A DNA stretch of 64,000 nt, taken from assembly GCA_903813345.2 (NCBI GenBank), contig CAIIXF020000005.1, forward strand, positions 25,609,375 through 25,673,374. The letters run 5' to 3'. This stretch comes from Owenia fusiformis (Eukaryota > Annelida > Polychaeta > Sabellida > Oweniidae). The notes beneath the pieces are model-generated. The model saw only the letters and a program-made list of their open reading frames with translations, ran no database searches and was not told where the DNA came from. Position numbers and translations under genes: made by a program. Each line of letters opens with the position of its first letter. Within the stretch, counting starts at the first letter, position 1. Positions 53,601 through 59,600 of this stretch are shown one piece after another.

Positions 53601-56600
53601 TGCTAGAAGACATGTGGTACATCAAGATACCAAATAATCTAAATGAGTTTTTCAAACTCATCTTTTATATGGTCCATAACAACTTTAGCATCACGGAATA
53701 TCAAATAATCTCTCTGATATCGTATACCATCGTTACTCTGTGCATGCTCCATAGCAGCTGTCATTCCGATATCCTCAGGATGGGTCAGGGAGTGGGATAT
53801 GACACTAATACAAAGTTCCGTAGCAAGACTCACAATCCCACGTTTCAGAGACATTTCAATTTTTTGGGCCCAGTCTTCGGTTTGGTGTGTTGCTAAGGCA
53901 TGTTCGTGACGGACTAGTTCAATAAATGGAGCGACATCTTGTACCACTCTGTATCCTTCCAGTATAATGTCATCAGCCTTTAAAATGAACCATCATCATA
54001 TAAAAGATCTAGTTCAAGATATGACATGTCAAAAGGTCTAGTTTAGGATATGACATGTTAGAGTCTTATTCAAGATATCTGTTAAACGGTCCAGTTCAAG
54101 ATATGACATCTTAAAGGGTATTGTTCAAGTTATAACATTTTAAAGGGTCTTGTTCAATGTATGCCATGTTAAAGGGTCTAGTTAAAGACATTATGCATTA
54201 AAGGGTATAATTCGAGTAGTAACATGTTAAAGTGTCTAGTTCAATATATGACAGATTATCTTATATAATTAATAACAGGTTTCAGTTCATATATTTAATT
54301 GATATGATTTTGGCGTCAACTTACATTTTCTTTTTCTTCGAGACTATCTGGAAATCCTGTTAGAGCAGGGTAAGGCCAACCTGACAATTGATTGTCAATT
54401 ATGTCACTTGAAACTAAACTGCCAGCCTGTAGATATAAATAATATTTTAATTCTAGTTTTTGGGGTTTGTGTATTTTTAAATTCTCTTATTATGAATATA
54501 AATAATAATTGTTTACTTTGCTAAATGGCAGCATATTAAAACCATCTCAATATTTTTGGGTCATTTTTTTTAAATTTATCTCTGACATCAAGGAAATTAC
54601 AAAAAAAAAGTTCTTATTTTTTCATCGTTTGTCAAGAAATCCTGCAGAAATCACAAAGTATTTTCTTTTACACTATTTACTTATTTCATTTGCAGAAATC
54701 ATCATTTTTACAGAAAACTTGAATGAGTGAACATCGATGATTACATTAACCATTTAAAAATGAATGTGAGTAAGCCACAAAAGTTCAACCCAAATATATA
54801 AAAATTCAATACTGTACATTGTATTCATGCATGATGATGCTAAGGTTAGCAGATATATGATCAGCTATTGTGGCTATAGTTTCATACTCTTGTATGAAAT
54901 CTACAGGGGGTGGGGTCATCACATTCCATCCATCGTTGCCTTCCTCGGGGTTAGCTGTACAGGTTTTTGGGCGTTGCCAAGGATGAACAATGGGTGGTAG
55001 ATATAACCCTTGTGTAGTGCTCAGTAGAAGCATTGCCACTCCTAAAGAATGTATATATTTTTTATTTCATAAAACAATAATTACATTTGTACAAGTTTGT
55101 TTTGAAGTTACATGAAACCTATAGGAGAGTGTGATTCTAAAATATTATATCATATCAATATATTTATTAAAGGGTTGGGGAATACAAAATGATATAAGAT
55201 TATACCATAAAATGTTTCATATAATAGTTAGGCATGAGGGATTGAAATGGTTGATATGCTTTTTGGAAAAAAATTACAGTTTTAGATAATATTATATTCA
55301 ATGACACAAGAAAGTACTTCATGAATTCTGTAACTTAATAAATAACAGAAAATATGGGAGATTGAACAATGGTTTTGAATAGTTGAAGGTAATATTTTCT
55401 TTCAAAGAAATACACATTTTCTATACAATCTTCAGGTTGTACTTGATTGTAATTGTGCCATTGGTCCCTATTAAAAGCTTTCTGCTTTTTCTGGGCACTG
55501 TATGAAGCAAAATGTTTAGCAAAGCTTGAATAACTTACTCCAAAGATTATACAATGACATCGTTTTATTGATGATATTCAGTCATCCTATTATATTGTAT
55601 AATATGGGTTATACTTACCTAGGATATTTGTGTAATTTGACAAACCTCGAATTTTGACCTACTTTTGCAACTTGACCTATTTTTGAAAATAAGATCTTGT
55701 GAGCCAATCAAATTTTGCCATTTCTGATCCAGAAGTCCCCCTTACTTATTACCTGCCTAAATTTCCAATTACCAATGAATAGTGTTGTGATATTCAGAGT
55801 GGGTGTGGGAATCTGAATCTGTATAAGTGATTAACTTGATTTTATGATCTCAAAAATGTAAAGAAAAGAATAAGTGATATTCAAGTAAACATTTGAAATA
55901 TGCATACCAAATAAACGAAACATGTTTTGAGTTTCATACATTTATCACATTTTTTATGGTTTTATGCATCTATATATCAAATATGAAAGAAAATTATCAT
56001 ATTGTAACTAATGACATGTATATGATTCTTAACAAGCAATTAAATAAATATTTAAGCAATGTAACAGTATCTGCAATCTTTTGTACAACTTTGATTTGCC
56101 CTTATATATTACAAAGAGTTTAAAAAACTAAATTACTCGTTCATAACCAAGAGTTCCAAGAATTCCCTTTTTTTAAACTAGAGCCACTATTGGTTGCCAG
56201 TTTTCACGATATTATAATGAGAACCAATAATGTTCATATATATGCCTTATAAATAATGAATCAGTTTTTGTTGGTTCTGATCTCATTCTATAAGAATGCC
56301 AGCTTATGGGAACAATATTAAGTGACTAATTTCAAAAGTATTGTTTATGATTAGTTTTTGATGATGACACCTGGTTTTATGCTTAAAGGAATATTCCTTG
56401 CCAAACAATCTCTCTCCTCATATGGTAGCTATAACCATATATATGCTTGCCATGTTTAGCAAAACACGCAAAAATGTTTTGATATGGTCAAATTTGATCA
56501 CTTAGAAATGTGATGCTCAATTCCAGTAAGCTGCCATCTTTTAAAATTTCACACAGGAAGTGATGTCATCGACTCTCAACTTTGCATTTAGCATTAGGTG

Positions 56601-59600
56601 AGGAGCTACTAAGAATTACAAAACCAGCTAAATATTCTTTTCAACTTTGTATCTTATTTAATCCTTCTGAAAATCTCTTCTTTTGTTCTAAGTTGACAAG
56701 CCCTGAAAATATTTTTGCACAGAAAGTAATGATCACTTGTCTAGAAGTGATTTTGTGCTACTTTCCTATACTGTTATGGGCAAGGTTATAGAAGTTGAGA
56801 GTTGATGACATCACTTCCTGCAAGAAATCTTAAAAGATGGCAGCTCACTGGAAATAAGCACTAGATTTTTAAATTATCAATATTGACATTTTCCCATGTT
56901 TTGCTAAATATGGAAACTATATATATGATTATAGCTATCATATCAAGAAAGAAAGGGTCTGGCAAGGAATATTCCTTTAAACATTCCATGATTGATTTTT
57001 AAACAAATGCTTATACAGATGACATTTTAGTTTAATAATCTCTTATTTCTTTGTAAATCCCTTTTGAAGCTCAACATGTAAAGAAAATATGTATTGTATT
57101 TGATTTTCTGAATTAAGAAATTATGTGGAATTTCTGAAACTGTTTACAAAATTAGATTGGTAAAAAAACGAAATTGACATATATTCTCTAACTTGTTTTA
57201 GTATTTACACATACATGTATTAGATAAAGAATTTTTGATGCACAAAAATGTGATGTTTAATTAATTTATATTTATGATATGCCAGTGTAATACAATAATA
57301 AATATTTAGTAATAAGCTAAGTCATCATGTATTTCCTTACTTGCATGACATCTTTTGATTCTTGAAAGTATGTTTTAGTATTTAAATATATTTAAAAGAG
57401 TTTCCAAGTTACCAAAAATATGAAGTTTAAGTATTTTGAGCTTCATGATATTCCAGTATTGTATATAATATATATAATAATTGCTTTATGATCATTGTAA
57501 TTGGAAGGTGTCATTTTTATATATTAAATAATAATAATAAATAGATTATTAAAACATACCACATATTTGTAATAAGATTCTCTCCATATTTGTTCTTTTT
57601 GTTGTCAGATTTCGATAATTGCAGATTATTATGTTGATGAATGTAGATTTCTCTTTGATGGGTGAAATGAAGGGACACTTGCTTATATACAAGTAAGAAC
57701 AGTTTCATAAAGAAAATGGGGAATTTGGATATTGCAACATCAGTTAGTGAGGGATAACAGTAAAATATTTTTCAGTAATTTAATTAAAGATGCAGAACCA
57801 GCCTTCAGGTGTGATTTTCCATTGGATGTGATCCAAGGGGTCGTATACACTGTAGTATTACATGCCTATTGAATTGTATTGTATTTTGTTGACTACCAAT
57901 GAAGGTGAGCAATACCTCTATGGTATATCCCATACTATAGTATAAATATGGTCATAATTTACGTAATTAGCCTGGAAGATAGACCCAGAAACCCCTCCTC
58001 AAAGGACCCCTGTGTTCTTTTATGTGCACCCATACATAGACATACAAGTACACACCACAGCCTTTTGTACAAGTTGTGAACCACTCAAACACCCTGAAGT
58101 ACTTTATTATTACTTATTACTGAATTACTTTTACTGTACTGTATCTAGTGATTTCTTGGGCAGTGCCTTCTAGCCTTTTCTCCCACCAATTGCCTGAAGT
58201 ATTGATGTCTTAATAGGAATTCATTTGGTTCTCACTAAGTCTTTGAGATAATCCCTAAAACTCTATATATTGGACTTTCATTTGACTAAAATCATGAATG
58301 AAACTATGCCTTTAAGTGTATTGTGATTTTGTATCATTTGTGATAATATCAACCAATCAAAATTCACTTAACTTTCATATGAACTTTTTCCCAATTTTCT
58401 CATTGTTGGAGATATCGATTTCCTCACTTTTGCTTAAAAATCGAATGCAGTACTGCGAAAATACTTGTTCTGAGATAAATGAGGTCAAAATGGTCAAAAA
58501 CCTATATATTTATTGATTTAATTCCTTTTAATTCCTTTGAATATCTCATTGGGTTTCATGTAAAAGTTTCCATATTGTGAAATGTAAATATTATAACAAT
58601 TAGTACTTTGTTGAAAACTTTCTCCCAAACATAAATTGCAAGCAAGCGATGGTGTTATTCTATAATAGGTAATATTTGAACAATTTGGTTTACGATTGAT
58701 AAAATGGGGATTATTTGAATCAGGATATTCTGTTCAGAATGTGGGTGTTTGATTGGTTTTGAGTGAAGGTTTTTAATCTTGTTAAGTTTTTATGAATGAA
58801 GTTTGAGGAGTTTATGAAAGAGGGGAACAATTAATGAATCCAAAAAACTATGTTCATCAATGAAGAACAGGTTTTGTTCAATATTAACAATTGCGTTAAT
58901 AAATCGTCATCGAGTATATCTTGTTTCCTTGTATCTAACATGAATTTAAGACTACAACTGATACTGTTACTCATATTTAACCAGTCTGCTTCCCTCACTA
59001 GTTATTTCCTTATTAGATATGATTTATCAGAGTCCCTCTTTCAACCCATGCTTGAGAGTGCTCCAAAAGATAAGAAGGCCCAAAATCGTACAATATATCA
59101 TGCTCTAAAAATAATTTAGGGATCACAATATTTTTACTTTTTTGCTTCCATGTTACGTACAATTATATTTGAATATTATTTGATTAACTTTTTATAGTGC
59201 CATAATAGTAATTGGCAAGCCATCCTGTATAAATAAAGAAAATGATGAAATAAATTGCAATTGAATATGTATAATTTTTTTATTTTTAAGATATTTGAAG
59301 AGTATGTTCCATGATCATGAGTGAAGTCATGGAATCCAAGCAATTAACTTTAAAACAAAAAACACAAACAAACATTTTATTTGCAGATTCTGTTTGTAAT
59401 TGTGTCAGATTCCCAAACCACTACCTTCAAGAGAAAGTGGCTGATATTGTTTTTAATATAACAATAGATAATATTATTTCAGAACACCTTTTTAGAACAC
59501 TTTTCTATTATTTCAGAACACATTTTTTATTATTTCAGAACACTTGGTGCTCTTCTACAGATTATGTCCATAGATGACATCAATCAGAAAGACAATGAGG

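Follow-up and report, generated by a model that had tools for sequence, protein, structure and literature searches.

Gene of P0001

The 64,000-nucleotide stretch of the Owenia fusiformis genome analyzed here (the window; C5:25609375-25673374) contains, at positions 53639-57587, the gene of a small, putatively secreted helical protein, P0001. P0001 belongs to a family of at least nine genes whose members probably represent IL-6-type long-chain class I cytokines, and the same genome carries exons of a gp130/LIFR-type receptor gene. A sequence-only reading of the window had proposed a four-helix cytokine related to CNTF and CLCF1 at this locus. The gene has the following elements, in window coordinates:

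57683..57689, minus strand: TATA box TATATAA, 102 nt 5' of the ATG
57587-57560, minus strand: exon 1, 28 nt, start of the signal peptide, ending in phase 1
55041-54818, minus strand: exon 2, 224 nt, remaining signal peptide, N-terminal arm and helix A, with a phase-0 donor
54818..54901, minus strand: predicted helix A, residues 57-84, with the sequon Asn75-Leu-Ser and the invariant Tyr83 one codon before the exon end
54426-54325, minus strand: exon 3, 102 nt, AB loop with the invariant Phe109
53977-53639, minus strand: exon 4, 339 nt including the stop, helices B, C and D
53891..53974, minus strand: predicted helix B, residues 120-147, from the secondary structure of low-confidence models and the alignment
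53786..53878, minus strand: predicted helix C, residues 152-182, from low-confidence models and the alignment, lacking a 100-degree hydrophobic moment
53645..53728, minus strand: predicted helix D, residues 202-229, with the aromatic Tyr205 near its start (column Tyr in 8/9 members, Phe in 1/9)
53433..53438, minus strand: poly(A) signal AATAAA, 201 nt past the stop

The genomic sequence encodes 230 codons and a stop, with GT/AG at all borders and intron phases 1-0-0, and reproduces at exact coordinates the four-exon minus-strand gene described in the sequence-only reading. The signal peptide that had been claimed has a hydrophobic core at residues ~5-16, as judged by hydropathy only. Intron 1 contains, at 56379-56984 of the window, a palindromic element of ~606 bp with two nested inverted repeats of 99 and 96 nt that are 83% complementary. 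The element is probably a transposon resembling miniature inverted-repeat transposable elements.

Paralogue family

The genome searched comprises 498 Mb in 525 contigs. A protein search with P0001 gave 12 rows up to E 10, three of which are the P0001 gene itself. Loci on C1, C5, C6 and C7 reached E ≤0.004, and two further loci had E 4.6 (C1) and 8.1 (C3). The best identity of exons at other loci to P0001 is 46%. Exon 4 of the paralogue L015, used as a query, added one C1 locus and improved the C3 locus to E 0.09, and two additional genome searches brought no new family members. The family thus has at least nine genes, P0001 and the eight further members that were read:

C7:16.23 Mb: L010
C6:28.03 Mb: L011
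C5:21.71 Mb: L012
C1:60.63 Mb (C1:60632000-60640000): L013
C1:48.20-48.21 Mb: cluster of three members, L014, L019 and L015
C3:29.63 Mb (C3:29632500-29639500): L020

The gene of P0001 is real. Its sequence lies beyond chance, because the search with the protein finds related exons at other loci. Chance open reading frames were rejected, as the gene family, selection and splice sites contradict them. A pseudogene was rejected as well, since the exon frames are open in the members read and the ratio of nonsynonymous to synonymous substitution rates (dN/dS) is below 0.5 in three pairs. These pairs, among L010, L011 and L012, have dN/dS of 0.48, 0.26 and 0.32; L011 and L012 are 85% identical. Two pairs with P0001 were compared, one of which is saturated at synonymous sites, and the other has a dS of 2.9.

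The members share an exon plan in which the AB loop has its own exon and helices B-D lie together on one. In 9/9 members, the donor that follows helix A and the junction ahead of helix B are both in phase 0, the calls for parts of L013, L019 and L020 being made by eye. The final codon of exon 2 encodes Tyr in eight members; in P0001 this Tyr is positioned one codon earlier and exon 3 is one codon shorter, 102 nt against 105 nt in the other eight (five measured by script; the acceptors of L013, L019 and L020 were placed by eye, and that of L013 is weak). The junction before exon 2 is in phase 1 in all five members examined (P0001, L010, L011 and L012 by script, L013 by eye), and the start of exon 2 was left unfixed in four members. 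Short first exons like that of P0001 are located 5' of L010 (MDIKFIL-) and L011 (MDMKFIL-), and these proposed exons likewise encode hydrophobic starts. No comparable short first exon was found upstream of L012, and the remaining members were not searched for one. TATAWA motifs are present 5' of the ATG at 116 (and 90) nt in L010 and at 137 nt in L011; ~9% of random 70-bp stretches in the window contain one.

Seven alignment columns are invariant in the nine members: Tyr83, Phe109, Gln131, Phe136, Leu169, Ile211 and Met219. A sequon is present at the Asn75 column in 7/9 members, and P0001 is probably N-glycosylated. In L020, the exon 2 frame holds up to ~340 Ser/Thr/Asn-rich residues before helix A, with the exon start not fixed, and the protein is possibly a mucin-like, anchored or heavily glycosylated cytokine. 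An intron of L013 contains in-frame short tandem repeats HYAYIKLIHHPINLPGVDILSHWL, and SYDLIQFNGII frames lie downstream of the L013 stop. Viral contigs gave 108 pattern matches to the family and bacterial/archaeal contigs 19 matches; none was confirmed in either set.

Predicted structure and receptor-binding marks

Two single-sequence AlphaFold2 runs placed helices at residues 56/57-84, 113/120-147, 152-182/183 and 202-229, plus a short helix at 91-98. In these low-confidence models, with predicted local distance difference test scores (pLDDT) of 38 and 41, the long A-B gap, the very short B-C turn and the C-D gap of ~20 residues are as expected of a long-chain cytokine. The structure prediction suggested as a check by the sequence-only reading gives four long helices, at scores too low to establish their topology. 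Four amphipathic segments had also been claimed. On the family consensus, helix A is clearly amphipathic (p=0.0008, peak at 100 degrees), and helices B and D lean helical (p=0.14 and 0.10, peaks at 110 and 106 degrees).

According to a passage of PMC10022904, helix D of LIFR ligands opens with Phe-x-x-Lys, including the Phe of CNTF and LIF, and that of gp130 ligands, including IL-6 and IL-11, with Trp. The family keeps an aromatic residue at the start of helix D in 9/9 members (Tyr in eight, Phe in one). Phe-x-x-Lys, which had been noted as not evident in P0001, is absent from all nine aligned members. The T-E-x-(D/W) start of helix C, previously taken as a mark of CNTF, did not hold up: TEDW occurs only in P0001, and the paralogues have SADM, SLEM, SAEM, SKML or nothing alike.

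Profile comparison with helical cytokines

The family was compared by hhalign with pooled and single helical proteins, over several sets of targets and with no correction of the empirical p values. Against six pooled human IL-6-type cytokines, the score was 20.97, reached by 0/111 column shuffles (Z 6.1), in an alignment spanning helix A, the AB loop and helix B. Pooled controls had Z of 1.2 for class II cytokines (IL-10, IFNA2 and IFNB1; 13/111 shuffles as high), 0.5 for globins, 0.1 for ferritins and 0.2 for apolipoproteins. The GH/PRL pool had Z 2.2, with 4/111 shuffles as high and an alignment that is not collinear. Eight pooled cytokines aligned collinearly over all four helices (151 columns, score 17.7, 0/251 shuffles, maximum 15.6), and five pooled cytokines scored 18.2, with 0/273 shuffles and 0/28 reversed rotations as high. 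The reversed family scored 14.6 against 21.0 for the six cytokines, and the six-cytokine score stayed at 17.5-26.3 in all five jackknife runs. The three-sequence CNTF-type alignment places family helix A on CNTF helix A and Tyr83 on Tyr38. As a positive control, CNTF-type against LIF/OSM gave a probability of 32.5%. Identity in the family-cytokine profile alignments is 8-13%, and no pairwise match is significant. In the profile search against CNTF, LIF/OSM and IL-6 that had been proposed earlier, the pooled score beats its shuffles, and the E-values that hhalign itself assigns are not significant. From these comparisons, the support for a likeness to IL-6-type cytokines appears real but modest.

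Among single cytokines, only CNTF (16.6) and CLCF1 (17.1) beat all 28 shuffles, and this leans towards the kinship originally proposed, yet the unrelated ApoA1 scored higher. The other three unrelated helical proteins compared singly, ferritin H, myoglobin and 14-3-3, do not stand out. With Phe-x-x-Lys absent in 9/9 members and the TExW start not conserved, kinship with CNTF/CLCF1 in particular appears unsupported. We rejected CNTF/CLCF1 orthology on these two marks, despite the lean of the single-sequence scores.

Library searches did not put a name to the family. Pfam gave no match for P0001. Absence from libraries weighs little, because human LIF itself, searched by phmmer against PDB, finds below E 1 only LIF, and no CNTF, OSM or IL-6.

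Intron position

Exon plans have already been used to recognize helical cytokines, according to a passage of PMC2654155. Family Tyr83 aligns with CNTF Tyr38 in both the six- and the eight-cytokine alignments, and CNTF Tyr38 and LIF Tyr66 share one column in both. IL-6 Glu70 is located seven columns away in the six-cytokine alignment and one column away in the eight-cytokine alignment. The single intron of human CNTF is in phase 0 after Tyr38. LIF has a phase-0 intron after codon 66 and coding exons of 19, 179 and 411 nt; IL-6 has one after codon 70 and coding exons of 19, 191, 114, 147 and 168 nt. These vertebrate exon sizes are general background: the sums for LIF and IL-6 agree with the protein lengths, and literature passages did not confirm the sizes. 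If they are right, CNTF, LIF, IL-6 and the family share a phase-0 intron that ends helix A, preceded by one in phase 1 within the signal peptide. The family fits the class I gene plan, as we know it from vertebrates, of a phase-1 signal-peptide intron followed by phase-0 introns, one of which ends helix A.

Receptor and pathway in the same genome

The sequence-only reading had suggested a search for a gp130/domeless-type receptor in this genome, and exons of the gp130/LIFR type were found on C1:

C1:39.09-39.125 Mb, minus strand: gp130/LIFR-type receptor gene, exons found by eye
C1 39091428-39091330, minus strand: receptor transmembrane segment
C1, to 39088659, minus strand: long cytoplasmic frame of the receptor

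The exons follow in the order of a Cys-x9-Cys-x-Trp exon, an EAENELGK exon, a YWSEWKNS exon ~11 kb on, and FN3-like exons. Joining the first two exons, with the junction approximate, gives a sequence that matches gp130 in PDB at 9.6e-6, and 49 of the 56 chains listed are class I cytokine receptors by name. In Pfam, the joined exons match LIFR_D4 (1.4e-7), EpoR_lig-bind (1.1e-6) and IL6Ra-bind (8.3e-6), all over the cut-off. The exon with RCKPKQGLYWSEWKNS has weak PDB matches to the WSxWS stretch of the prolactin, IL-31 and also gp130 receptors, the best at 0.0019. The receptor model consists of exons placed by eye, with the junctions and the exon between EAENELGK and WSEWKNS unmodelled and no box 1 identified. 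In-frame short tandem repeats VRDLESKSKWVI and HTVLYHNILPIS are located next to the receptor exons (C1:39101300-39111100).

A genome scan with IL6Ra-bind gave three exon-size matches below the cut-off; the one on C1, when read in frame, begins the receptor gene described above, and the one on C3 was rejected, as it has stops and does not look like a receptor. A second receptor candidate, on C9, is under the Pfam cut-offs. STAT_alpha is over the cut-off in two exons of one locus, and its presence at a single locus argues against a vertebrate genome. Molluscan haemocyanin (PF14830), scanned as a lineage marker, gave no match; its controls were silent as well, which makes this negative uninformative. 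For JAK, the Pfam families FERM_F2 and SH2_1 found nothing in the genome, and their controls were silent too. The human JAK2 kinase domain gave 24 genome matches; the best two look ROR- and TRK-type by eye, and 22 were not read. The FWYAPE pattern has one exact match, outside open frames with kinase motifs, and its backward control also has one.

Interpretation

We consider it likely that the family represents IL-6-type long-chain class I cytokines that are ligands for the gp130/LIFR-type receptor on C1. The invertebrate class I cytokine of the sequence-only reading has gained eight paralogues, an exon plan, profile likeness, an aligned intron and a receptor with STAT; its fold and binding are predicted only. 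Like the vertebrate IL-6-type cytokines (LIF, OSM, CNTF, CLCF1, CT-1, IL-6 and IL-11), the family members are small and appear to be secreted. They share with them four predicted long helices, with long stretches linking A to B and C to D and a very short turn between B and C (in low-confidence models), a short phase-1 first exon in the signal peptide, the phase-0 intron ending helix A at the aligned Tyr, and an aromatic residue at the start of helix D. The AB loop has its own phase-0 exon in the family (35 codons) as in IL-6 (38 codons). The family differs from the IL-6-type cytokines in its low identity, in the lack of Phe-x-x-Lys and in carrying helices B-D on one exon, preceded by an extra intron that CNTF and LIF are not known to have.

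We hypothesize that P0001, once secreted, adopts an A-B-C-D bundle whose AB and CD crossovers are long. Its docking on the gp130/LIFR-like receptor (C1:39.09-39.125 Mb) would depend in part on the AB loop and on the aromatic residue that opens helix D, which may lie where IL-6-type ligands have their 'site 3'. The chains of the receptor would then pair, and a JAK would relay the signal to STAT. In our judgment the odds are even that the family and the IL-6/LIF/CNTF ligands are truly homologous; in that case, the ligand-receptor pair would predate vertebrates and the exon plan would have been kept since, surveys would have missed the ligands as lying outside the range of BLAST, and this lineage would have expanded them to at least nine, L020 among them with a long Ser/Thr/Asn-rich stalk. 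The paralogue expansion and divergence suggest that a few receptors are served by several ligands, as happens in signaling in immunity, regeneration or development.

Several results weigh against this interpretation. The pLDDT of both models is low, fold searches with the 41-pLDDT model, a low-confidence query, returned no cytokine in the matches listed, and helix C, another of the segments claimed to be amphipathic, has no helical peak, its peak being at 170 degrees. Nothing in PDB fell below E 0.6 for P0001 or a seven-member profile, and every Pfam match of the nine members, present in five of them, was under the cut-off. The E-values given by hhalign are not significant over their whole range of 0.02-0.32 (CNTF-type, three sequences, 0.21; LIF/OSM, two sequences, 0.32; larger pools, 0.02-0.08). 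Single CT-1, LIF, OSM, IL-6, EPO and GH had 13, 6, 6, 21, 8 and 3 of 28 shuffles as high, respectively, and ApoA1 alone scored 18.15 (1/28 shuffles as high), above CNTF and CLCF1. The reversed family scored 16.4 against 17.7 for the eight cytokines, and because it thereby exceeds all 251 shuffles, these are a lax control for that set. The eight-cytokine score also drops to ~12 without the C1 cluster or L020. In global mode with five cytokines, 18/28 forward rotations were as high; since rotated alignments score equally well, this mode provides no evidence. On the receptor side, Pfam has no family that matches the WSxWS exon by itself; of the four FN3-like exons scanned, one exceeds the fn3 cut-off, another two fall short of it and the last has no match. 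A JAK was not located by the Pfam, JAK2 kinase-domain and FWYAPE-pattern searches, which does not show it to be absent.

An unrelated, lineage-specific family of secreted helical proteins, such as carrier, egg-coat, antimicrobial or haemolymph proteins, would be cytokine-like only in being small, secreted and helical. It would fit the lack of a significant library match for any member and the unusable structure models, and the ApoA1 control (18.15) is about equal to the five-cytokine profile (18.22). A phase-1 intron in the signal peptide is, moreover, common among secreted proteins generally. We nevertheless regard such a family as unlikely, for pooled apolipoproteins, ferritins and globins reach Z of 0.1-0.5 against 6.1 for the six IL-6-type cytokines, the intron is located at the helix-A codon that aligns with the presumed vertebrate position, and the genome has a gp130/LIFR-type receptor for which no ligand is known.

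The family could instead be the counterpart of Drosophila Unpaired (Upd1-3), which is also secreted and invertebrate and whose receptor is described as gp130-like in a passage of PMC6996930. The ligand class would then be ancient and the vertebrate group not its nearest kin, a reading that overlaps with the IL-6-type assignment in so far as it also involves a class I-type ligand. In Pfam, L012 (13.4 bits, E 0.057) and L011 (11.9 bits, E 0.17) match Unpaired (PF15972) best, over the end of the AB loop and helix B. These scores are at most half the curated cut-off of 27 bits, Rad26-like_N scores about equally in the same two members, and Pfam finds nothing of Unpaired in the remaining 7/9. As L011 and L012 are close copies, at 85% identity, their matches count as one event. 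We judge this reading a little less probable still than an unrelated family.

A class II-type cytokine, interferon- or IL-10-like and akin to the oyster CgIFNLP, a molluscan interferon-like cytokine and fellow invertebrate helical candidate that a passage of PMC9756803 describes as class II-like with an IFN domain, is very improbable: class II genes too have phase-0 introns between helices (in a passage of PMC2654155), and the short first exon of IFNL2/3 ends in phase 1, but the family has no Pfam interferon match, its profile likeness to IL-10, IFNA2 and IFNB1 is at the level of Z 1.2 with 13/111 shuffles as high, and it carries B, C and D on one exon against the five exons of IL-10-type genes, whose introns divide the helices.

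Significance of IL-6-type ligand candidates

A 2026 survey of 18 metazoan phyla/subphyla (PMC13203501) found IL-6-family ligands in vertebrates only, followed the IL6R-type receptor as far back as molluscs, and did not settle which ligand most invertebrates use. Its criteria, as given there, were BLAST E ≤1e-5 and ≥30% identity, and because of these thresholds it is unlikely to have detected the present family. The best-ranked literature matches include no IL-6-type ligand outside vertebrates and insects. Since the family resembles IL-6/LIF and the genome has a matching receptor gene, its members are good candidates for the long-missing ligands of the invertebrate receptor. If the IL-6-type assignment is true, the family supplies ligands for an invertebrate receptor class that lacks one in most phyla. 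With both a receptor locus and nine candidate ligands available in one genome, the ligand question can be tested directly, and the shared exon plan provides a search handle for the family in other genomes.

Other features of the window

Rfam and tRNA scans of the 64-kb window gave nothing useful. By eye, an open 290-codon frame at 37890-38762 on the minus strand looks like the C-terminal portion of a reverse transcriptase from a retrotransposon, with nothing in Pfam at E 0.01. In the region 61243-63185 on the plus strand, a 114-bp unit is present in 17 tandem copies, with 97% matches. Each unit holds an ankyrin-repeat exon (Pfam Ank, 4.1e-15) and apparent flanking intron ends. As 114 is a multiple of 3, one plus-strand frame of up to 379 codons runs through much of the array, and long open frames are present on the minus strand as well.

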